From Deltaproteobacteria bacterium (GTDB taxonomy: Bacteria > Bdellovibrionota_C > UBA2361 > OMII01), in NCBI GenBank assembly GCA_947488865.1, contig CANLCB010000012.1:1-32944 (forward strand): a stretch of 32,944 nucleotides of DNA, read 5' to 3'. Numbering within the stretch: the stretch's first letter is position 1; every line of letters starts with the position of its first letter. The notes under the pieces were generated by a model that was not told the origin of the DNA, ran no database searches, and saw only the letters and a list, made by a program, of their open reading frames with translations. The position numbers were made by a program, and so were the translations under genes. This document shows, piece by piece, positions 764 to 31,987 of the stretch.

Positions 764-2920
764 CTACATTCGCTCTACGGTTTCGATACCAAGCAAAGAA
801 AGAGCGTGTTGAATGACTCGACCACTCGCGTCAACCAACGCGGCTCGAGCAACCTTCAACTCGAGAGTCTCGGCGTGAAGCACTGAACAGTTTTGATACA
901 TTCGGCTAAATCGCTTTGCGAGATCGTACACGAACGCGCACACAAGGTGTGGGCTGTATCGTTCACACGCCGACTCAACCACAGAGTGATACTCGTTAAT
1001 AAGACGAAGCACATCGACTTCTGTCTCGTGCGTTAAAAGATCCCACTTCGCTGTCGTAAATTGTTTTTCGTCAATTCCAACTTCTCTTAAGATCGACCGA
1101 GTGCGCGCGTAGGCGTACATCATGTACGGCCCCGTGTTACCAGTCTTCGCCGTCCACGCGTCGAGATCGAAGATAACAAGGGAAGTGTTATCCACGTTCA
1201 ACATACCGTAGCGCATCGTCGCGAGCGCAATTCTTCTTGCGGCTTCTACTCGCTCAGCCTCAGGCCACTCATCTTTGTACTTATCGAGGAACTCAGTGTT
1301 GATGCGATTGAGCAATCTATCCTTCAACGCGGACATCAAGATGACAGTTCCCTTTCGGCTACTCATCTTGCCCTCAGGGGTCACAACCTGACCATATGAA
1401 CAGTGGAAACAGTTCTTTACCTGCTCATACCCCATGAGCTCTAAACAGCGAAAAACCTGCTGAAAATGAAGAGTTTGAGCGACATCGACCACGTAAACCG
1501 ATCGATCAATTTTGAACTCCTCAAACTTCCGTTGAGCGAGCTTCAAGTCACGAGTCGCGTAGAGCGCGGTACCATCGCGTTTGATAAGAAGACAGAACCC
1601 AAGATTTTCCTTCGAGAGATCTGCTCCGACCGCGCCTTGCGATTCTTTAAAGATTCCCTTCTGCTGAAACTCACGAACAAGCTCTTTGCTGGACTCTCCG
1701 TATTCAGACTCATAGAAGAAGTGATCGAACGAGCAGTTGAGCCATTTGAAGGTCTCTTTCAACTCGTCGATAGACCACTGTCGGGTCTTGAGCCACAGAT
1801 CCTTCATTTCTGGATCGTTCGACTCTAGCCGTTGAAGAACTGATGACACCTCTTTATTCCAGCCGTCGATGGTTGGAAGAACAAGTTGTCCCTCTGGAAG
1901 GGCGCCAGGAATCTTGAACAATTCAACTAAGTCGATCCCGATTCCGTCGGGCTTGGTTTTTAGCAGCTCCGGAGACAAGGTAAGATTAAGAACTGTATTG
2001 TTCTCTCCAATCCCAAGCTCCTCTTCGCCAAGCATGAGCCCAACACTCTGAACTCCTTTTCGGTCCGCTACACCGATCTGACGAGCGCCAAGCGCGACAC
2101 CTGGACCGGCGTGAGGAACGAGAGAGCCTGGTTTGATATCGACCGCGTTCTTTTTCGCGGTAACAACTGAGACAACTCCGTCACTCGTAGTCAGCGTCGC
2201 GACAACCCACTCAGGATTGTTTGGATGAGGCACAAGCGCGTCCACACGAGCTGTTTTAATCCCTCGAATTTCAACTTTGGAGTAGGTCCCCAAATCGAGC
2301 TTCGAGGTAGCATCAACGTACGCTTTCCCCATGAATTCCAAGCGGTTAGACTCAGGCATCTTGAGCTCCGGGTGCGTCAAAAGATACCACAGACACTTGG
2401 CAACGTGCGTCCCCTCGTCACCGAGGTAATTGGCGCGAACCGTCGTATATCCGTTCCACTCAAACAACCGAGAGACTGTGTCGCCAAGAGACGCGTTACG
2501 AATGTGTCCAACGTGAAATGACTTATGAGTATTTACATTTCCGTACTCGACCATCACCCGAGTCTTCTTGTGAGCGCGAGCTTTTAGGAATTCTCCACTA
2601 ACGATCGATGGAACAAGCACTCCTGCAAGAGATGCCTTGTTAAGAATAAAGTTAATGTACGGGCCTATCGGTTTAACCGCTTCGATCTCTTTCTCCGCGG
2701 CAAGCTTCTCAGAGAGTTTAGCGGCAAGATCGGCAGCGATCGCTGGAGGAGCTTTCTTCAGAGAGCGAGCCAACTGGAAACACGGGAAGGCGATATCACC
2801 ATGCGCTGAGTCTTTTGGAGTCTCCAGAAGATTCTCGATCTCGGAAGCTGAAAGAGAAACGCCCCCTAATTCAGCGATCACCTGCTCTAACACTCGAGCG
2901 ACTATTGCTTGACCGATCAT
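764..2920 (-). CDS. argS: Arginyl-tRNA synthetase with an inserted tRNA-binding (OB-fold-like) domain
   Basis: Class I synthetase that charges tRNA-Arg in the cytoplasm. The 718-residue protein has an N-terminal Arg-tRNA-synthetase additional domain (about 1-100), the HIGH-like motif HVGHIRN at 136-142, the KMSKS-like loop GKMSSRKGT at 517-525, and a C-terminal helical anticodon-binding domain (about 600-718) ending in ERM. The family is normally 550-600 residues. The excess is an insertion at about 213-350, between AYVDATSKLDLGTYSKVE and the point where the normal family pattern resumes at about 351. It reads like the tRNA-binding domain of PheT, Trbp111 and MetG C-termini: PHPN at 231-234, IKPGSLVPHAGPG at 262-274, and GVQS with EELGIG at 289-305. 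The start is the ATG with AAGGAG five bases upstream. It is last in a two-gene unit, 16 bp after rfbA. Confidence 0.97.
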   Translation of the reverse strand: MIGQAIVARVLEQVIAELGGVSLSASEIENLLETPKDSAHGDIAFPCFQLARSLKKAPPAIAADLAAKLSEKLAAEKEIEAVKPIGPYINFILNKASLAGVLVPSIVSGEFLKARAHKKTRVMVEYGNVNTHKSFHVGHIRNASLGDTVSRLFEWNGYTTVRANYLGDEGTHVAKCLWYLLTHPELKMPESNRLEFMGKAYVDATSKLDLGTYSKVEIRGIKTARVDALVPHPNNPEWVVATLTTSDGVVSVVTAKKNAVDIKPGSLVPHAGPGVALGARQIGVADRKGVQSVGLMLGEEELGIGENNTVLNLTLSPELLKTKPDGIGIDLVELFKIPGALPEGQLVLPTIDGWNKEVSSVLQRLESNDPEMKDLWLKTRQWSIDELKETFKWLNCSFDHFFYESEYGESSKELVREFQQKGIFKESQGAVGADLSKENLGFCLLIKRDGTALYATRDLKLAQRKFEEFKIDRSVYVVDVAQTLHFQQVFRCLELMGYEQVKNCFHCSYGQVVTPEGKMSSRKGTVILMSALKDRLLNRINTEFLDKYKDEWPEAERVEAARRIALATMRYGMLNVDNTSLVIFDLDAWTAKTGNTGPYMMYAYARTRSILREVGIDEKQFTTAKWDLLTHETEVDVLRLINEYHSVVESACERYSPHLVCAFVYDLAKRFSRMYQNCSVLHAETLELKVARAALVDASGRVIQHALSLLGIETVERM

Positions 2921-2936
2921 GACAACTCCTTATTTC

Positions 2937-3818
2937 TTATCGGTGAACGCGATCGCTATTAAGAAGAGTCTGGAGGTACTGACCGTACGAACTCTTCTTC
3001 TGTCCCTCAACTAACTTCTCAAGCTGCGCGCGATCAATGAAGCCCATCGAGAAGGCGATCTCCTCAAGACACGCCACCATTAAACCCTGCCGTTCTTGCA
3101 ACGTTTGAATGAAATTGCACGCCTGGAGCAATGATTCATGGGTTCCCGTGTCCAGCCACGCCATGCCACGTCCGAGCAATTCAACATGCAATTTTCCAGC
3201 TTTCAAGTACTCTGAGTTTACATCTGTAATCTCTAACTCTCCTCGGGGCGAAGGCTTCAAATTGCAAGCGATGTCCACCACCCGATTGTCGTAGAAGTAC
3301 AAACCGGTGACCGCGTACTGCGATTTTGGTTGCTTTGGCTTCTCAACAAGATGAACCGCCTTACCGTTTTCATCGAACTCCACAACGCCATAGCGCTCTG
3401 GATCCTTCACGCGATATCCAAAGACCGTCGCTCCATCAGCTCGCCCCGCCGCGTTACGAAGCGCGTCGGCAAATCCATGACCAAAGAAGATGTTGTCTCC
3501 CAGAGCAAGCGCGACGCGGTCAGTCCCAATAAACTCTTTACCGATTATGAACGCTTGCGCGAGACCGTCTGGACTCGGTTGCTCAGCGTAGTGAAACGAA
3601 CAGCCCCACTGCGAACCATCACCGAGCAAACGCTCAAAGGATGGACGATCGTGTGGAGTAGAAATGATTAAAATGTCGCGGATGCCTGACAGAAGAAGCG
3701 CCGAAAGCGGATAGTAGATCATCGGCTTGTCGTATATCGGCAAGAGCTGCTTGCTAATTGCGAGAGTAACCGGATGAAGCCGAGTGCCTGAACCGCCAGC
3801 TAGAATAATCCCCTTCAT
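2937..3818 (-). CDS. rfbA: Glucose-1-phosphate thymidylyltransferase
   Basis: Makes dTDP-glucose from glucose-1-phosphate and dTTP, the first step toward dTDP-rhamnose and other dTDP-sugars for surface polysaccharide. The protein has the normal length (293 aa). It carries the nucleotide-binding signature GGSGTRL at 8-14, the sugar-phosphate motif with K23 in [12 protein letters not shown], and the metal and nucleotide motif LGDNIFFG at 106-113. The C-terminal helical region ends in GQYLQTLL. The usual partners rfbB, rfbC and rfbD are not in this window; instead the gene sits 16 bp ahead of argS on the same strand. It diverges from the PBP4-like gene across about 134 bp that should hold both promoters. 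Confidence 0.95.
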
Positions 3819-6903: not shown

Positions 6904-8124
6904 GTGAACAAAGTATTACTTTTCCTATCCTTCGTCGTGCTGAACTTGTGCGGTATCGTAGCACCTACCGCGATGGCCCAAGACGTCGGGTGTTGGATAT
7001 TCGAAAAAGACACATCGGGAAACCTCGGAACTTTTCCAATCGGAAATGCGAATGCGGCGGCCTCGGGACAAGTAAAGGGCCTCTGGCTAACCAGTCCAAC
7101 TGGAGTGTCCTTTCCGTTCACTGGGACCTACATTGCAGGAAAGAGCTTCACCGCAAATTCTCTGCGTCAACTAACAGTCGTTGCCCAATTTTCGTACGTT
7201 CGGACATCAACGGAGTGTATTCACCAAAGCGGCCCCGAACCGTGCGGCCCGCGTGGAGTTCCGTGCAATTCGTGCATAACAGGGTCCTATTCGGTGTATC
7301 AATACGGCTCATACGTGACCTACTGTAACGATGGCGCTACTGCTGGAAAACCAGGAACACAGGTGAATGTTGCATGCTCGTTTGAGGGGCTCGGCGCAGG
7401 CTCGGGCTACCTACGAGGGGCAACCGATAACGGCGCTGGATCACTGACAGGTCATATATGCGCGATGAGCACCGGCTGTCTCGAATACACCGGTCAACTT
7501 GCGGCTTCGTACTCGAAACAAGAGGTTTCCATTCCTGTGCCGAACGGGACCGCAATCAAATATACTTTCTCAGAGGCACTCCCTGATGCCAAAGGGGTAG
7601 AACGAGTACGATTCTTTAAGGCAACGAACGCGGCATTCCTCTCACCTTCCCTCTTCTGCGTGTTAAGCGGCGGGGGCGGCGGTGCGCCTGGTGGCGGAAT
7701 CGGTGGAGGCAGTGGACCACAAAATAGCTGCGCTATGGCGTGCTCACTAGGCAGCTGCGTAGGCGATACCGGCTGTCCGGGAGTAAGTACGGGACCTGAC
7801 GCCTCTTGCACACGATGCGTGTGCAGCTCCGACGGGCAACAACCAGCGTGCAACGCTGGAGATAATACCGGGGCAGGCAACAACGGCTGCGATATGGCGT
7901 GCTCACTAGGCAGCTGCGTAGGCGATACCGGCTGTCGGGGAGTAAGTACCGGACCTGACGCCTCTTGCACACGATGCGTGTGCAGCTCCGACGGGCAACA
8001 ACCAGCGTGCAACGCTGGCGGTAATACCGGGGCAGGCAACAACGGTGGGAGCAGCGGACGGTCCGGGTACGTACCGGGCTCAGGCGCATCAAACAAAAGC
8101 AGCGGGAGTAAATTAGGTAACTAG
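6904..8124 (+). CDS. Secreted cysteine-rich protein with a C-terminal tandem repeat, function unknown
   Basis: Not recognised. The 406-residue protein starts at GTG 6904, after a purine-rich GGGGG tract about eight bases upstream. It has a clear signal peptide (about 1-26, ending APTAMAQ). Residues 27-250 are a Gly/Ser/Thr-rich extracellular-looking domain containing scattered cysteines, including CGPRGVPCNSC. A glycine hinge (SGGGGGAPGGGIGGG) is followed by two 53-residue units (276-328 and 329-381), each with eight cysteines spaced C-x3-C-x4-C-x5-C-x10-C-x2-C-x-C-x8-C, joined by NTGAGNNG linkers. A Ser/Gly tail ends the protein. The Cys pattern suggests small disulfide-bonded modules; antistasin-like or similar folds are possible but unproven. 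It probably acts outside the cell or on the surface. Confidence 0.8.
   Translation: MNKVLLFLSFVVLNLCGIVAPTAMAQDVGCWIFEKDTSGNLGTFPIGNANAAASGQVKGLWLTSPTGVSFPFTGTYIAGKSFTANSLRQLTVVAQFSYVRTSTECIHQSGPEPCGPRGVPCNSCITGSYSVYQYGSYVTYCNDGATAGKPGTQVNVACSFEGLGAGSGYLRGATDNGAGSLTGHICAMSTGCLEYTGQLAASYSKQEVSIPVPNGTAIKYTFSEALPDAKGVERVRFFKATNAAFLSPSLFCVLSGGGGGAPGGGIGGGSGPQNSCAMACSLGSCVGDTGCPGVSTGPDASCTRCVCSSDGQQPACNAGDNTGAGNNGCDMACSLGSCVGDTGCRGVSTGPDASCTRCVCSSDGQQPACNAGGNTGAGNNGGSSGRSGYVPGSGASNKSSGSKLGN
7729..8046 (+). repeat. Two tandem 159-bp repeats inside the Cys-rich gene
   Basis: Copy 1 is 7729-7887 and copy 2 is 7888-8046. By eye they differ at about six positions (for example CCGGGAG against CGGGGAG), so they are about 96% identical. 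The near identity, including silent positions, points to a recent in-frame duplication. Confidence 0.9.
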
Positions 8125-8152: not shown

Positions 8153-9661
8153 TTACGCCAACCCAAAGAAGCGTCGTAGACGCTCTGTGAGCGCGCGTTC
8201 ATCTCCTTGTGTAGGAACTGCTTCTGTAACCGCGCTCTTAAGATTTCGCGCGGCCTCAATCTCGTCAACTCGTTCAGCCGCGTAGTGCGCGAAGGTCTGG
8301 ACGAGCTCGGGACGACGAGCCAACAAAACGCTCAAAGCATTCTTGCCGATTCGTGCTACACTTATATCGGCGCGAGCCTGTATCGACGCGATACGAGGCG
8401 TCCCCGCAAGCAGAGACATCTCTCCACAAATTTCTCCGCCTTGCAGGATTGCCGCTGGGACAGTTCGGCCATCGTGAGCTCCAACTAACACGGTGCAGTC
8501 ACCCTGGACGATAAGGAAGAAGGAGTCGCCTACTTCACCTTCGCGCATCAAGAACTCACCCTTGCCGTATCGCTCAATCTTCACCTCGTGAGCGAGAACT
8601 CCAAGGTCTGACTCATTCAACGACGTAAAGAGCGGCACTTTACCCAACAAGCTAAGCACCAACCCGCTACTATCGTCGCAGATAGGAGCATAGGGCACTT
8701 CTGTCTTATAAAGGGTGGTAATCGGATAAGGAATCGCGATACCACGACGTCGAGCGGCGTACCAAATTCGAGTCATGAGCTCGTTACGAACGGCAACGAA
8801 ATCGTCATACGCTGAGATAAAAACTCGCAATTCATACTGCACCGCGTAAGCCCCAAACTCCAACGTGCGAGGATCTGGATCCGGAGTACTTAGAATTCCA
8901 GGGGTCGCTAGGGCCGCTTCTACCAGCATCTCCCGTACGATATTTGGCGCGGCGTCATACGAGAACCCGATAGATACCTTGAATCCAAATACCTTACTTG
9001 GACTTGAAAAGTTAGTAATTCGGTCCTTGCCGATCGCGGAATTCGGAATGGTTATCTCGTTAAGCTCCCGAGTGACAATTCGGACGGAGCGCCAATTAAT
9101 CTGCTGCACCTTTCCAATAAGGTCACCAACCTGAATCCAATCACCAACACTCAGCGGTCGCTCAAAAACGAGCGCGAGCCCTGAGAATAGATTTCCAAGG
9201 GTGTCCTGAAGCGCGAGACCAAGAACAAGAGAACCAACCCCGAATGTAGTGAGAAGAGGAGAGATGTCCTTGTGCCATACGCTGCTGTACACCAACACAC
9301 ATCCGATGACGACGAAGCAAAGCCGGACAATATCTACTAGAAGGCGAGGCGTCCGAGCTCGAATCGAGTTTTGCCCCCGGTCAGCGAAGAAAAGCACCTT
9401 CAAGACGTTAGCGAGGAACCATACGAGGATAAAACCGAACAGGGTCTTTGCTACCAAAGCCACCTTGTCGGTAGATTGAATCCCCAGCAATGCTTCCAGA
9501 GCCCACAAAATGAAGAACCCCGGCAGGATGATATTGCGAACATAGCGGAAGAGAGCCTTGAAGTGCCGATCAGTCCGTCGCTCGATAATTAGGCAAGTGA
9601 ACCATAGAGCTATGAAGGCGCTCCCCCCTCCAGCCCACAAGAGATCCGAGTACTCGTTCAT
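8153..9661 (-). CDS. MscS-family channel with a C-terminal cyclic nucleotide-binding domain
   Basis: Probable ion channel of the bCNG type (MscS superfamily with a cNMP domain) in the inner membrane. The 502-residue protein has hydrophobic segments at about 10-27, 42-60, 68-92 and 108-127, then the pore helix and MscS core (about 131-165, FGVGSLVLGLALQDTLGN). The MscS beta domain follows with FERPLSVGDWI at 166-176 and IPNSAI at 205-210. Residues about 337-455 are a cyclic nucleotide-binding domain whose phosphate cassette is GEMSLLAGTPRIA, with E414 and R423. The last 40 residues are charged. Its ATG overlaps the terC stop by one base (TAATG), so translation is probably coupled. Whether it is gated by tension, a nucleotide or both cannot be read from sequence. 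Confidence 0.93.
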   Translation of the reverse strand: MNEYSDLLWAGGGSAFIALWFTCLIIERRTDRHFKALFRYVRNIILPGFFILWALEALLGIQSTDKVALVAKTLFGFILVWFLANVLKVLFFADRGQNSIRARTPRLLVDIVRLCFVVIGCVLVYSSVWHKDISPLLTTFGVGSLVLGLALQDTLGNLFSGLALVFERPLSVGDWIQVGDLIGKVQQINWRSVRIVTRELNEITIPNSAIGKDRITNFSSPSKVFGFKVSIGFSYDAAPNIVREMLVEAALATPGILSTPDPDPRTLEFGAYAVQYELRVFISAYDDFVAVRNELMTRIWYAARRRGIAIPYPITTLYKTEVPYAPICDDSSGLVLSLLGKVPLFTSLNESDLGVLAHEVKIERYGKGEFLMREGEVGDSFFLIVQGDCTVLVGAHDGRTVPAAILQGGEICGEMSLLAGTPRIASIQARADISVARIGKNALSVLLARRPELVQTFAHYAAERVDEIEAARNLKSAVTEAVPTQGDERALTERLRRFFGLA

Positions 9662-18279: not shown

Positions 18280-19155
18280 CTACCCTTCAGATACCAGCTT
18301 CCTGAAGAGGATTTGAAGGTCGCCATCACCATAGAACTCTACAGTAAGGCGTCCACCCTCGGCATTTGGATTCGTACGGGTCAATCGAACCTTCATACCG
18401 AGAGACCTTTGAATCTCTTCAGAGATTCGAGAGTCCTCTGCGCTAACAACCTTCGATTCAACGACGGATTCGTAGGCTACTGGCCCCTTCTTACCATCGA
18501 TACTCTTCTCAAGTTGGGCTCTCGTCAGAACATCGATGTCCTTCAGATAGCTTGCTCGAAGAGCCGGGTCCTCAATTTTCGAGACCAAAAGCACCTTAGA
18601 CTCAGAAGCACCCTCTTTGAGAGCGTTCAAAAGGTCATCTGGAAGCTGAAGAATCTCCAAACTGCGCTGAACGGCGCTCTTAGAGATGCTCAACTTCTCC
18701 GCGATCTCTCGAACTGAGAGGCTATGACCGTCTCGAAGCGCTCCAATAGCCTGAGCACGCTCTAATGGAGTGAGATCTGCGCGTTGTAGGTTCTCAACAA
18801 GCTGAATAGCGAGAGTCTTGCTATCTTCATCTTGAGATTGGCTTACCATTGCTGGAATGGAAGTAAGTCCCGCAAGCGTAGCGGCGCGATACCGTCGCTC
18901 TCCAGATATTACTGTGTATCGACCAGGCAAAGCTCCCGCACGAACGAGGATTGGGCTAATGACTCCATACAATTTAATGGACTCAGACAGCTCCTGCAGC
19001 TTCTCCTCATCGAACGTCCTTCGTGGCTGATTCGGGTCAGCTTCAATGGCAGAGAGGGGGATTTCGCGATAAGGAATACCGCCCCGTACTCGCTCTTCAA
19101 GCCCTGGGCCCTGCATTAAAGGGTTATTCGCAAACGAGAAACTACGCTTTGACAT
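18280..19155 (-). CDS. parB: ParB partition/CTPase protein
   Basis: Centromere-binding protein that loads at parS and spreads as a CTP-dependent clamp. The 291-residue protein has an N-terminal ParB/Srx domain (REIPLSAIEADPNQPRRTF from about 29), the CTP-binding motif GERRYRAA near 83-90, and ENLQRADLTPLERA. A helix-turn-helix follows (VREIAEKLSISKSAVQRSL, about 130-150). The C-terminal dimerisation region near 245-288 (LGMKVRLT...GGRLTVEFYGDGDLQIL) is of the chromosomal type. Its ATG lies inside the parA 3' end, a 14-bp overlap, so the two are translated together. Confidence 0.96.
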   Translation of the reverse strand: MSKRSFSFANNPLMQGPGLEERVRGGIPYREIPLSAIEADPNQPRRTFDEEKLQELSESIKLYGVISPILVRAGALPGRYTVISGERRYRAATLAGLTSIPAMVSQSQDEDSKTLAIQLVENLQRADLTPLERAQAIGALRDGHSLSVREIAEKLSISKSAVQRSLEILQLPDDLLNALKEGASESKVLLVSKIEDPALRASYLKDIDVLTRAQLEKSIDGKKGPVAYESVVESKVVSAEDSRISEEIQRSLGMKVRLTRTNPNAEGGRLTVEFYGDGDLQILFRKLVSEG

Positions 19156-19936
19156 TAAGAACCTCCTCAGCTAACGCTTGGTAATCTTCTGCTCCTGACG
19201 ACTTCGGCATGTACTCAAAGATCGTTTGTCCTTTTGCAGGCGCCTCAGCCAGAGCAACATTCTCCCTGATGACCGTGTTGAACACGAGTTGTCCAAAGTA
19301 AGCGCGGATCGTATCGGCTACAGCACGCGCGAGTCGCTTCCGACTGTCGTGAAGGCAAATAAGAACGCCACCTACGATGAGATTTGTGTTGTACACATTT
19401 CGAACCTGGTCGATGGTATCAAGAAGCTGTCGTACGCCGTGCAGAGCTAAGTACTCGCTCTGCACTGGCACAATTACTTTGTCGACTGCCGCCAAGGCGT
19501 TCAAAGACAGAAGGCCGAGGGTAGGGGGGCAGTCAATTAATATTACGTCATACTGGTCGCGAACCTTTTCAATCGCTCGCTTGAGTAGGAGCTCTCGTCC
19601 GACAACCCCACCAAGCTCGAGATCCGCAGCGCTCAAAAGAAGGCTTGAAGGGACAACTTCAAGATTGTCAGACCGCTTAATAATAACGTCTTGAATCCGC
19701 TTATTCCCTTTTAGCACATCATAGATAGTGAGCTCTGGACCTTGAGGAACTTCCGAGAGGTCCGACGGATCGTCCTTAGCGCCAACTCCCAGGTGCGTGG
19801 TCATGTTGCTTTGAGCATCAATATCAATCAATAAAACCCGCTTTCCTTTGCCTGCTAAGGCAGCTCCTAAATTGACAGTAGTCGTTGTTTTTCCAACGCC
19901 ACCTTTTTGGTTAACAACGCTTATCGCGATAGCCAC
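19142..19936 (-). CDS. parA: ParA partition ATPase
   Basis: Deviant-Walker ATPase that moves ParB-bound DNA over the nucleoid. From GTG 19936 the 264-residue protein reads MAIAISVVNQ then KGGVGKTTT (11-19), the Walker A' motif LLIDIDAQSN near 39-48 and Walker B ILIDCPP near 122. It is short, without the N-terminal DNA-binding domain of large type Ia plasmid ParA, and resembles chromosomal Soj/ParA and type Ib-like proteins. The GTG is chosen because GGAGGT lies five bases upstream; a TTG five codons earlier also opens the frame but sits before that ribosome site. An iteron begins 16 bp upstream, so the initiator may influence parAB transcription. Confidence 0.96.
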   Translation of the reverse strand: MAIAISVVNQKGGVGKTTTTVNLGAALAGKGKRVLLIDIDAQSNMTTHLGVGAKDDPSDLSEVPQGPELTIYDVLKGNKRIQDVIIKRSDNLEVVPSSLLLSAADLELGGVVGRELLLKRAIEKVRDQYDVILIDCPPTLGLLSLNALAAVDKVIVPVQSEYLALHGVRQLLDTIDQVRNVYNTNLIVGGVLICLHDSRKRLARAVADTIRAYFGQLVFNTVIRENVALAEAPAKGQTIFEYMPKSSGAEDYQALAEEVLNVKA

Positions 19937-19951
19937 AAAGCACCTCCACAA

Positions 19952-20588: not shown

Positions 20589-22181
20589 ATGTCCACGTCG
20601 GTCGCGAATCCAAAATCCCCTCACTCGGAGCCGATGTTCTCCGATCCGGTGAATTTGGATTCTCCAGCCGTTCCAGTTTCGCCTAACGACTCTCAAACAG
20701 TTCGTCCACTTCCACTCAAAATTTCTCGTGACGAGATGAACCTCGCGGAATTTCCGCTCACGGTGCTCTCAAAACGCGCGGACCCCTCAATCAAAACACT
20801 CGAGTTCACCGACTCCGTAAAAGGCAAAAACGGAGACGTCATCAATCGACAATGGATTATTACCGGCGCGGATAAATTCGGGCTCCCAACCTCTTCCGAT
20901 GATGAGGTGCTTTTAGGACTCCTCAAGCTCACCGCCGATGATGGTTTGCGAAGCCCAAAAGTTCATTTCACGCGGTACGAACTTCTAAAAATTTTGCGCT
21001 GGACCACCGAGGGCCGAAGCTACGTGCGCTTGCAAAACGCCCTGGATCGTTTGAGTGGTGTGCGCATCAAAGCCACAAACGCCTTCTACGACAATGAAAC
21101 AAAGCTCCACAGCACCCGAAACTTCGGCATCCTGGACGCGTACGAAATCAACGATGGACGAGACACGCGCCCCAGTTTCTTCACGTGGAGCGAAGTGCTT
21201 TTCAAGTCATTCCAGGTAGGCTTCATCAAAAAACTAGATCTAGAATTTTATCTCGACCTCCAAAGCGCGGTGTCGAAACGTTTGTACCGCTACCTCGATA
21301 AACACTTCTGGTATCGCTCTCGTATGCAGGTAAATCTCTTCGTTCTGGCTCACGAAAAGATTGGAATCTCCCGTAACTATGTCTATGCGAGCTCTCTCCG
21401 CCAACAGTTAGAGCCCGCTCTTGACGAGTTAAAAGACAAGGGACTCTTGAGTGAGTACGAATTCATTGGCAAAGGAAAATCAACCGAAGTGGTCTTAGTC
21501 GCGGCGCACGCGCCTCGCAAAACATTGGCCGCGCCGACTCCAAGCACAGCGGGGCCACAAACCGCGTCCATGCCTCAAGCGAATCTTGAGCCGTCCGGGG
21601 GCAACGAGGCAGACGCCGCTGTCGAGCAGATGTTAATGCAACGCGGCATCATGGAGAAACAAGCGAAGCGGTTGGTGAACCAACGGTCGCCTGAAACCCT
21701 GGCGCGCATTCGCTCCATCGTTTTCTACTTTGATGACTTGGTTGGAAGTGAGAGCCATCTGGTAAGCAGAAACCCCGCCGGATTTCTCTACCGAGCGGTT
21801 GAAAAACCTTTCGACTTTGTGTTGCCAAATGACAAGCACTCCCACACGAAGGAGCCTGGCGCTCAGGGAGAGCTCTCTTTAGACGCCCGTGTTACTCCCC
21901 AATCGCAAAAGCAACAACCACGCAAAGCTTCTAAGGAGCAGCACATTGACGCTGAGATTTCATACCTTCTAGAGCGTAAGAAGGTTCTCGATGAGCTCAA
22001 GGGGCGAACGCCACCCTCAACCATTGAGGTGATGCAAGCGGATGTTGAGTCCGCTTTAGCGAAGCTCAAAGCCCACATCTCCCCGAGGCGTTTCCAGGAG
22101 GCTGTTGAGCACGGCGTAGAGCAACGACTACTCGACCAAAATGGATTTCCTGATTTTGACGCGTGGTGCAAGTCCCTGTAG
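20589..22181 (+). CDS. RPA-family (plasmid-type) replication initiator
   Basis: Replication initiator of the kind annotated as replication initiator protein A (Pfam RPA), typical of plasmids in several Gram-negative groups. The 530-residue protein has a proline/serine-rich leader (1-45). The family block follows: RDEMNLAEFPLTVLSKRA (about 47-64), KTLEFTD, GADKFGLPTSSDDEVLLGL (about 94-112), GRSYVRLQNALDRLSGVRIKA, FFTWSEVLFKSFQVGFIKKL and SAVSKRLYRYLDKHFWYRSR (about 230-250), consistent with tandem winged helices. After a variable linker (about 300-420) a charged C-terminal helical region (425-530) is of unknown role. ATG 20589 lacks a ribosome site; the ATG at 20634 has GGAG before it and is an alternative start. 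It diverges from parA across the iterons, which are its likely binding sites. Confidence 0.88.
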   Translation: MSTSVANPKSPHSEPMFSDPVNLDSPAVPVSPNDSQTVRPLPLKISRDEMNLAEFPLTVLSKRADPSIKTLEFTDSVKGKNGDVINRQWIITGADKFGLPTSSDDEVLLGLLKLTADDGLRSPKVHFTRYELLKILRWTTEGRSYVRLQNALDRLSGVRIKATNAFYDNETKLHSTRNFGILDAYEINDGRDTRPSFFTWSEVLFKSFQVGFIKKLDLEFYLDLQSAVSKRLYRYLDKHFWYRSRMQVNLFVLAHEKIGISRNYVYASSLRQQLEPALDELKDKGLLSEYEFIGKGKSTEVVLVAAHAPRKTLAAPTPSTAGPQTASMPQANLEPSGGNEADAAVEQMLMQRGIMEKQAKRLVNQRSPETLARIRSIVFYFDDLVGSESHLVSRNPAGFLYRAVEKPFDFVLPNDKHSHTKEPGAQGELSLDARVTPQSQKQQPRKASKEQHIDAEISYLLERKKVLDELKGRTPPSTIEVMQADVESALAKLKAHISPRRFQEAVEHGVEQRLLDQNGFPDFDAWCKSL

Positions 22182-30292: not shown

Positions 30293-31975
30293 TTAGCTTT
30301 TAACGCCGCTCGATTTTTTCCATGAACGCTTTGATGTGGTGGCGCCTATCGGAGTGCTCCACTCAGCTACCACATTCTGTTGGGAGGAATCTTCAAAAGC
30401 GATAAGGTGAAACTGTGGTTCCTCTGTGGCGGCTGAAGCGCCTACGGTACCCCGCACGAACACCGATTCGGCGTGAAAGTGTAACGGTAAACAGAAATCG
30501 TGCCCGAGCATGTGGAACCGTGGTCCTCCATCCTTTAAGCCATTTACCTCCCGGTCCCCAATCAGAGGGATTTCCCCCATTCCGGTTTGCAGTATCGACT
30601 CAAGCCGAGGATTGAGAATCTCTGAGCGATACCATTTCGACCGGGTGTCGATGAGCTCTACGCTCGGATCGAAGACAATCCGCAGCTTCCCGGCATGTTC
30701 CAAAGCTTGCACTCTTCCGAGCATACAGATGGGTTTGAGTATATCCGAGCATTCCGCGGTAGGTCCGTACCCATACACAGCGAAGTTCATGACCCCTTCG
30801 CGCCGCAACGCGCTCAAATCAGCGGGTTCAAAAATGAATTGCCCGTGAGTTATGCCGAGAGTTTTAAGTTGGTCTTTGGGGAGGCGTAGTGTTTCAGCGA
30901 AATGCTTCGCCCCACGGGCGAACGGAAAGCAATCAATAAAGGCGCCGCTGTCGACGAACCTTATTCCCCGAGGACTTTCGAGAAGTGTCAGATCGAAAGG
31001 GCCGATACCCCGTCGGAGGCACTCCAGAGTACCGGTGGCGTCAATGAGGAGCTCTCCCTGAGCGGTGCGTCGCCCTTCGAGGATCGAGAGGTGCTTTACC
31101 GCGACTTCAATTGGTGAAGGAGTTGGCGTGAAAGCCGGTGTGCGCTGAACAGTATGCGAGGTGTTAAGGCTCGGCGTCATGAGCCCCTCATGATAGCCCA
31201 GCGCAAGCGAGCGAGATCGGGGCATAGCTGAGAGACAATCTTTAAAGGATTCTGGAATGGCTCGTACCTCAACTCCAAAAAAACCATCTCGGATGAAAGG
31301 AGTGACTGAAAATTCACGATTGGTGCGAACTGGAGATCGTGACGGTCTGTTTTTCCCGCTCACACCTTTACCTTCTTGAGACTCGCCTAGCTCAAGCCGT
31401 TCAAAGATGTCTCGCGAGAGTAGTCCGGAGACCGGTGGCGGAGGTGTGACTCCGAATGGATCGTTTCTCCATTCTTGAAACCAGGCGAGCCAAGGCTGGA
31501 AATTGAGTTCGAAAGCTCCATCCTTAAGCCGCGCGGTGAGTGAGGTGAACTCTTCCGCCTCTCCCTGCAGTCCCACACTTGAGAGGAGGTCTCGCGAGGT
31601 GGTGGAGAACTGTGCCCACAAGGTAACAGTCTTTACGGGAGGCTGCTGAGCGTTCGCGATCTCCTCACAGCTCTTACCCTCCACACACATCATCCGAAGA
31701 CGGCGCATAAAAAGGGTAAAGTGGGTGGGATCTCGTGAGAGCTCATTGTAGGCATCGCATAGAACTCGGTAGTAAGGATCTCGCGCCCGGAGTTTCTCCG
31801 CGAGGGGGGAGTCCTTGAGATGCTCAAAGCTCGAAAGATCTCTGGCTACCGGCGGAAGGGTTGGAGTTTGTTTCTCCGTCGTAGGGGGGCGCACGAGACG
31901 GTCGAGGGACTCGGGCAGCACATCGCCTAGGGTCGCAAAGCCTCTTTGGGTCGTTCTCTCTTCCATGCCGCCCAC
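30293..31975 (-). CDS. Large hypothetical protein
   Basis: About 560 residues, not recognised. The N-terminal third is helical and charged, with a segment near 97-127 (CVEGKSCEEIANAQQPPVKT) that has the look of a sigma-like helix-turn-helix. A Ser/Arg/Pro-rich linker lies near 200-220. The C-terminal half (about 270-540) is beta-rich with regular hydrophobic phrases such as ELLIDATGTLECLRRGIGPFDLTLL and GEIPLIGDREVNGL, and contains HFHAESVFVRG near the end. No signal peptide is seen. The start is ambiguous: GTG 31987, GTG 31975 (GGGGA five bases upstream, used here) and ATG 31966. It converges on the UbiD-family gene with a 3-bp gap. Confidence 0.7.
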   Translation of the reverse strand: MGGMEERTTQRGFATLGDVLPESLDRLVRPPTTEKQTPTLPPVARDLSSFEHLKDSPLAEKLRARDPYYRVLCDAYNELSRDPTHFTLFMRRLRMMCVEGKSCEEIANAQQPPVKTVTLWAQFSTTSRDLLSSVGLQGEAEEFTSLTARLKDGAFELNFQPWLAWFQEWRNDPFGVTPPPPVSGLLSRDIFERLELGESQEGKGVSGKNRPSRSPVRTNREFSVTPFIRDGFFGVEVRAIPESFKDCLSAMPRSRSLALGYHEGLMTPSLNTSHTVQRTPAFTPTPSPIEVAVKHLSILEGRRTAQGELLIDATGTLECLRRGIGPFDLTLLESPRGIRFVDSGAFIDCFPFARGAKHFAETLRLPKDQLKTLGITHGQFIFEPADLSALRREGVMNFAVYGYGPTAECSDILKPICMLGRVQALEHAGKLRIVFDPSVELIDTRSKWYRSEILNPRLESILQTGMGEIPLIGDREVNGLKDGGPRFHMLGHDFCLPLHFHAESVFVRGTVGASAATEEPQFHLIAFEDSSQQNVVAEWSTPIGATTSKRSWKKSSGVKS

Positions 31976-31987
31976 GTTATTCCCCAC

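Follow-up and report, generated by a model that had tools for sequence, protein, structure and literature searches.

The argS gene of a 32,944-nucleotide stretch (the window) of contig CANLCB010000012.1, from a Deltaproteobacteria bacterium assembly (GCA_947488865.1), encodes an arginyl-tRNA synthetase (ArgRS) with an additional OB-fold domain inserted into its catalytic domain. Profile matches and predicted structures make it almost certain that this insert belongs to the tRNA_bind superfamily and is of the B2 type found in the beta subunit of PheRS (PheT). Coordinates are collected in Table 1.

A B2-type OB fold within the ArgRS catalytic domain

Judged from domain content and predicted fold, the product is an ArgRS equipped with every usual part: the N-terminal domain, the HIGH motif (which we take HVGH at residues 136-139 to be), a KMSKS-type motif (presumably KMSSR at 518-522) and the DALR domain are all present. 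The argS model TIGR00456 scores 388.3 bits, above its curated cut-off of 261.65, in two stretches, and the Pfam catalytic domain tRNA-synt_1d is found as two separate stretches, 356-585 being the better. By comparison, the pheT_bact model reaches 25.5 bits of its whole-protein cut-off of 402.65 and covers the insert domain only. The full-length AlphaFold2 model (pLDDT 94.3, pTM 0.88) aligns with yeast ArgRS 1bs2 at Z 43.7 (3.4 A over 569 residues), and its core fold is like that of other known ArgRS (yeast 1f7u, E. coli 5b63 and P. horikoshii 2zue; Z 36.7-42.2). The ArgRS chains among the listed matches have 449-659 residues, and at most 628 if a human subcomplex chain is set aside, as against 718 in the window ArgRS.

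The original prediction, made from sequence alone, placed a PheT/Trbp111-like tRNA-binding domain inside the catalytic domain at 1870-2285 (residues ~212-350). The location holds, with the insert proper at residues ~213-346 (1883-2284), and the motifs PHPN, KPGSLVPHAGPG, GVQS and EELGIG are all present in the order claimed. In the predicted model the insert is flanked by helices 193-208 and 347-366; it replaces a loop of ~6 amino acids (aa) in the nearest insert-less relatives (L045, L047, L051 and others). The NCBIfam model pheT_bact matches residues 217-312 at 3.6e-6 in the whole protein and at 1.9e-7 in the insert alone.

Two results for the window copy weigh against this assignment. Against Pfam tRNA_bind (PF01588) the insert scores only 12.5-12.9 bits and misses the gathering cut-off of 27, and a phmmer search of the PDB with the insert and short flanks gave no match. 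Taken by itself, the window copy would thus half fail the proposed tRNA_bind profile check, which succeeds clearly for the inserts of its relatives. ArgRS from 11 of 15 insert-bearing genomes pass the tRNA_bind cut-off at 30.6-57.4 bits. The four that miss it (G002 and G004, 20.5 bits each; G000 and G010, without a listed match) all belong to the window’s genus, within which, by these scores, the domain is most diverged. PF01588 matches all 19 inserts of a wider set at some level (best 1.8e-15), as does pheT_bact (best 2e-26). Because most of the relatives’ copies pass the tRNA_bind cut-off and the pheT_bact match is significant, the likeness goes beyond chance.

A profile built from these 19 inserts and searched against the PDB ranks PheRS beta first (4.9e-21, chain residues 42-150), followed by 3bu2, a putative tRNA-binding protein, at 1.2e-16; the first MetRS C-domain entry comes at 5.1e-5. 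Trbp111 (1pyb) is reached at 2.7e-3 amid chance matches, which from E ~1e-3 onwards include TAL-effector repeats, so that the Trbp111 row alone is not evidence. Alignments to PheRS beta extend to chain residue 150-156, and we take residues ~40-150 of PheT to be the B2 domain.

Since the ArgRS core dominates fold searches with the whole model, the insert was also folded and searched alone. It is predicted as an OB barrel (pLDDT 94.6, pTM 0.86), with barrel strands in the full model at 221-231, 238-245, 248-255, 267-271, 284-286 and 291-293. The OB fold expected for it is borne out by an alignment with PheRS beta at VIA-align Z 16.1 (2.0 A over 113 residues). Entries for Trbp111, EMAPII p43 and the MetRS C-domain give Z 8.5-11.5 (Trbp111 8vtz, 11.3 at 3.9 A over 103 residues; EMAPII, 9.0), and YtpR is another near fold match. 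Both profile and fold comparisons thus place the insert closer to PheT B2 than to domains of the MetRS/Trbp type. The superfamily and fold originally named stand, and PheT-B2-like is a better name than Trbp111-like. The accompanying statement that the module is elsewhere terminal or in PheT is not quite right, since the PheT module is itself internal.

One clade of fused ArgRS in four phyla

With the insert columns removed, all 25 insert-bearing ArgRS form one clade (support 100/100) in a careful tree of 45 chosen rows, the other 20 being near or representative insert-less sequences. A wider, quick tree of 102 ArgRS rows (10 of 112 were dropped as duplicates, fragments or, in one case, divergent) places 19 of 19 insert-bearing sequences in one clade with SH-aLRT 97. 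The insert domains behave likewise: 19 form a single clade (100/100) against 39 PheT, MetRS and free-standing domains, in a tree from which four insert-bearing ArgRS, three duplicate PheT and five loci below threshold were dropped among 30 PF01588 loci, and nine loci without B2 were left out among 30 PheT loci. Taken together, the single ArgRS clade and the single insert clade are most simply read as one insertion of the B2-type OB fold, with later transfer or loss.

Fused ArgRS occur in 20 of the 926 genomes searched, in four phyla. They are found in 9 of 45 genomes of the window’s phylum (where seven further matches lie in PheT-length frames of 799-888 aa), in 6/290 of the phylum of G061 (a Bdellovibrionaceae bin), in 3/294 of the phylum of G058 (a Planctomycetaceae bin) and in 2/297 of the phylum of Sulfidibacter. 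The sets of 290, 294 and 297 genomes are samples, and each phylum set holds the insert-bearing genome on which it was centred, which somewhat inflates the frequencies. All six new copies checked from the G061 and G058 phyla are insert-bearing ArgRS. Named hosts include Sulfidibacter corallicola (complete genome) and Holophagae, Pirellulaceae and Bdellovibrionaceae bins. Phylum labels partly interleave in the ArgRS trees, where the Planctomycetota sequences L034 and L035 group with the Bdellovibrionaceae sequence L040, at moderate support (92/60) in the careful tree. This placement suggests transfer of the fused ArgRS between phyla, with losses also possible. Searched with the ArgRS profile, viral contigs gave 203 pattern matches, of which two were confirmed loci; neither has the insert.

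In 16 of 17 genomes whose fused gene is intact, among them the complete Sulfidibacter corallicola genome, no second ArgRS reaches the cut-off; indirectly this supports the fused protein as a working enzyme. The exception, G027, has a second, ordinary ArgRS; in G062 a second match falls below the cut-off, at 89 bits.

The window’s genus contains two types of ArgRS. Five of its 12 genomes have an intact fused argS, and a sixth (G009) has an argS fragment at a contig end that is 80% identical to the fused gene and stops ahead of the insert. Ordinary ArgRS, only distantly related to the fused form, occur in G001, G007, G008 and G011 in frames of 574-617 aa; the search of the 12 genomes gave no ArgRS match in G003 and G005. 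The gene upstream of the fused argS, which we take to be rfbA-like, is also present in G007 and G001 together with the next two genes (one by Pfam a carboxypeptidase, the other presumably an ammonium transporter), with argS not beside them. In these two genomes the ordinary argS lies at a different locus, in a neighbourhood common to both. As fused and ordinary argS occupy different loci within the genus, gene order indicates that ArgRS has been exchanged there, in one direction or the other.

The loop that holds the OB fold carries other material elsewhere. Ten Thermomicrobia/Chloroflexota ArgRS (L054, L056, L061, L065-L069, L074 and L076) have inserts of 118-198 aa in the same loop; these score at best 1.1 bits against the OB profile, and for two examples Pfam gave no match. 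The loop thus seems to be a hot spot for insertions. The inserts of 115-118 aa at this site in L011 and L012 (family f14, same class) reach 3.0 and 1.9 bits with the insert profile, lack a Pfam tRNA_bind match and bear no recognisable homology to the OB domain; possibly they are a decayed OB copy or a further independent insert.

Candidate roles of the insert

An RNA-binding role for the insert is rather likely in our assessment. The domain would serve as an accessory site that holds tRNA loosely and so raises its local concentration, perhaps gripping the single-stranded 3' end as Trbp111 does and exchanging the CCA end with the active site. In ArgRS the N-terminal domain contacts the D-loop and the DALR domain the anticodon. 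The insert would act beside these ordinary contacts, whose domains are all present, and tRNA choice would be unchanged. The second tRNA contact of the original prediction is plausible on these terms; specific capture of the 3' end is a more tentative proposal. The OB fold of Aquifex Trbp111 grips no more of the tRNA than its 3'-terminal CA; R75, K33, S82, M85 and F78 matter, and the terminal A76 is held by S82 and M85 (PMC11286949). The same work argues that this mode is likely general for this class of OB folds and that fusion to a synthetase helps to load tRNA, and it cites a lowered Km for tRNA on OB-fold fusion (PMC11286949). The PheRS beta B2 domain has itself been named as an RNA-binding OB fold (PMC5370408).

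In Trbp111 numbering, G79, S82 and G84 are invariant in the 25 inserts aligned, and position 85 is hydrophobic in every one (M in 13, L in 6, V in 5 and F in 1). Position 34 is Trp in 19/25 inserts as against Leu in 38/39 comparison domains (PheT, MetRS and Trbp-like). In the L45 loop, where column assignments may be shifted by alignment, position 76 is D in 20/25 inserts and 77 is K or R in 21/25. By these columns, part of the pocket's A76 side seems to be retained and its C75 side to have been rewired.

Several observations weigh against an RNA-binding, and especially a 3'-end-binding, role. K33 is retained in 6 of the 25 inserts and lost in 19; R75 is not conserved (V or A in 16/25), nor is F78 (K or E in 16/25); and the window copy has E at position 33 and L at the M85 site. 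Lysine and arginine together are fewer than aspartate and glutamate in 18/19 inserts. The window barrel is 59-64% identical to those of four genus relatives, with 70-81% for the core, which indicates faster drift there. Other genomes of the same genus are served by an ordinary ArgRS without insert, and one of these, G007, has nearly the same tRNA-Arg genes as the insert-bearing G010. The count of genomes with the fused enzyme as sole ArgRS is weakened by frequent incompleteness (the window’s genome is 70% complete) and is firmest for the complete Sulfidibacter genome. For human ArgRS and the EMAPII protein p43, delivery of tRNA was proposed in one study and left unconfirmed in another (PMC4394549).

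Among the comparison domains, R75 is missing from all 11 Trbp-like and 5 of 7 MetRS rows (16/18), yet is R in 11 of 21 PheT rows; F78 occurs in none of the 39 domains; and an acidic excess is likewise found in 20 of 21 PheT B2 rows. Between L003 and L004 the barrel is 84% identical, the core 83% and the insert tail 67%. The dN/dS ratio is unusable for the insert, as synonymous sites are near saturation.

A bolder version of the RNA-binding proposal is possible, though we would not expect it to hold. It makes the insert another docking site for the tRNA 3' end, its pocket rewired through W238 next to the lost K33 and through D286-R287, and the clade a distinct ArgRS family. If so, the CCA end would shuttle between the insert and the ArgRS active site. 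ArgRS needs tRNA for the activation of arginine, so the inserted module could then gate amino-acid activation itself. Under the rule of AARS Online, the members of a synthetase family are monophyletic and differ from others by an indel of at least 50 aa (PMC11580382); a clade of this kind would receive a family name of its own.

Alternatively, the domain may have lost RNA binding and become a docking or oligomerization module for a translation factor, another synthetase or the enzyme itself. The acidic make-up of the inserts and the loss of K33 in 19/25 fit this, and the family-typical residues at positions 34, 76 and 77, unseen in the comparison domains, suggest a changed ligand. YtpR is, by its entry title, part of a PDB crosslinking model with GatB. 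However, all 25 inserts retain S82, G84 and a hydrophobic residue at position 85, and in Trbp111 the pocket for A76 is lined by S82 and M85 (PMC11286949). We regard a purely protein-binding module as unlikely, though not remotely so.

Less probable still is a neutral passenger, a domain taken up by an insertion-tolerant loop without effect on the enzyme. The other inserts of the ten Thermomicrobia/Chloroflexota ArgRS, which do not match the OB profile, and the faster drift of the window insert relative to the core would suit such a history. Against it, an OB domain with invariant glycine, serine and glycine positions persists in 25 sequences from four phyla, and the constraint on the L003-L004 barrel equals that on the core.

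ALTERNATIVES tested were (a) altered tRNA-Arg identity and (b) relocation of B2 from PheT. The first, considered since OB modules bind tRNA, holds that the insert compensates for altered identity elements in tRNA-Arg. No point was found in its favour, and all eight tRNA-Arg genes compared (four anticodons each in the insert-bearing G010 and the insert-less G007) keep an A after GG in the D-loop, presumably A20. The sets of this one genome pair are nearly the same. Altered identity is not supported by the GGA kept in 8/8 genes of that pair, and we consider it very improbable.

The second supposes that B2 moved out of PheT and acts from its new place in ArgRS, either in cis or in trans for PheRS. 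PheT lacks the N-terminal B1/B2 domains in the window’s genome and in 12/12 genomes of the genus, and also in five insert-bearing genomes named as Acidobacteriota (G057, G059, G060, G062 and G063). But in the Sulfidibacter phylum B2 is also missing from PheT in 18 of 20 insert-less genomes, the other two giving partial matches. In the G061 phylum it is present in 19 of 20 insert-less genomes (one without a match) and in 6/6 insert-bearing ones. The 20 insert-less genomes of the G058 phylum are mixed (seven with B2, eight without, one partial and four without a match), and so are four insert-bearing genomes of the window’s phylum outside the genus (one B2-less, two B2-bearing, one undecided). 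Loss of B2 from PheT tracks phylum rather than insert; this largely refutes relocation, to which we give hardly any credence.

In the B2-less PheT of the window’s genome, at G000:C11:31198-33180, and of the related genomes, the match starts at profile position ~146-163. A PheT without B2 has been noted for many bacteria of the candidate phyla radiation (PMC5370408).

Finally, most named sources of fused ArgRS are metagenome-assembled genomes, but an argS-pheT chimera made by assembly or binning is refuted, and has practically no chance of being right, given the fused gene in the complete genome of Sulfidibacter corallicola strain M133 (L043) and the single open frame without inner stops of every listed insert-bearing copy.

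Known OB-fold modules and neighbouring genes

The B2 domain of PheRS beta (TIGR00472; PDB 4p71, 3pco and 1pys) is closest to the insert in sequence profile, in fold and in the length matched, which reaches beyond the barrel, and shares with it an internal position and an acidic balance. Unlike B2, the insert sits in ArgRS, a class I synthetase, differs at W34, D76 and K/R77 in the L12 and L45 loops, and forms its own clade. Trbp111, EMAPII and the MetRS C-terminal OB domain (PF01588) share superfamily, fold and the S82-x-G core. They differ in being free-standing or terminal, whereas in the insert K33 is mostly lost and the basic character is absent. OB modules are known in MetRS, PheRS and human TyrRS (PMC11286949).

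B2 modules have been joined to other synthetases before, in a B2-TyrRS (WS6 bacterium, sludge metagenomes) and in a B2-like LysRS of a few Microgenomates (PMC5370408). Those fusions are N-terminal in TyrRS and C-terminal in LysRS (PMC5370408), whereas here the module lies inside the catalytic domain of ArgRS, in other phyla. In human ArgRS an EMAPII-type OB fold is tied to the enzyme in trans, through the coiled coil by which AIMP1/p43 is bound (PMC4394549). AARS Online treats ArgRS as one family, and ArgRS is absent from the synthetases listed there with an EMAP/OB module (PMC11580382). In the literature searched, judged mostly by title or abstract and with most subscription journals outside its scope, there was no description of an ArgRS with an EMAP, B2 or OB insert. 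What we report is the union of a familiar domain with a familiar enzyme, at a site and in a pairing for which no description was found.

A B2-type module fixed within a class I catalytic domain, in one clade across four phyla, and swapped with an ordinary ArgRS inside a single genus, amounts to a natural experiment on OB function: of two genomes whose tRNA-Arg sets hardly differ, one relies on an ArgRS that has the module and the other on an ArgRS that lacks it. The grip of an OB fold on the tRNA 3' end described in 2024 (PMC11286949) makes the insert’s function directly testable.

Table 1. Positions in the window of the argS gene, the parts of its product and the adjoining gene.
Feature	Position	Strand	Remarks
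argS coding sequence, ArgRS with internal OB-fold insert	764..2920	-	718 aa, translated open reading frame
Arg_tRNA_synt_N, N-terminal ArgRS domain, residues 10-93	2642..2893	-	Pfam E 2.1e-15
HVGH, presumed HIGH motif, residues 136-139	2504..2515	-	H136, G138 and H139 invariant in 38 aligned ArgRS
Insert, PheT-B2-type OB fold inside the catalytic domain, residues ~213-346	1883..2284	-	pheT_bact, profiles, predicted model
OB barrel of the insert, residues 218-303	2012..2269	-	strands of predicted model; aligned to PheRS beta from chain residue 39
W238	2207..2209	-	Trp in 19/25 inserts; site beside Trbp111 K33
D286-R287-K288-G289-V290-Q291-S292-V293-G294-L295, L45-loop equivalent	2036..2065	-	G289, S292 and G294 columns invariant in 25/25
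C-terminal tail of the insert, residues 304-346	1883..2011	-	partly matches post-barrel stretch of PheT
KMSSR, presumed KMSKS-type motif, residues 518-522	1355..1369	-	invariant in 9 compared sequences
DALR_1, DALR anticodon-binding domain, residues 600-718	767..1123	-	Pfam E 5.6e-31
Nucleotidyl transferase (presumably rfbA-like), upstream neighbour	2937..3818	-	adjoins fused argS in 6 genus genomes, including the G009 fragment

Elsewhere in the window, ParB- and ParA-like genes at 18280-19951 and 20589-22181 adjoin a match to Replication initiator protein A (RPA), which we take to be plasmid-type; the contig that bears them also carries argS and other housekeeping-like genes. Two long open reading frames, at 6904-8124 and 30293-31987 (406 and 564 aa), have no Pfam match at 1e-5. 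The gene at 8153-9661 encodes an MscS-type mechanosensitive channel with a C-terminal cyclic-nucleotide-binding domain.

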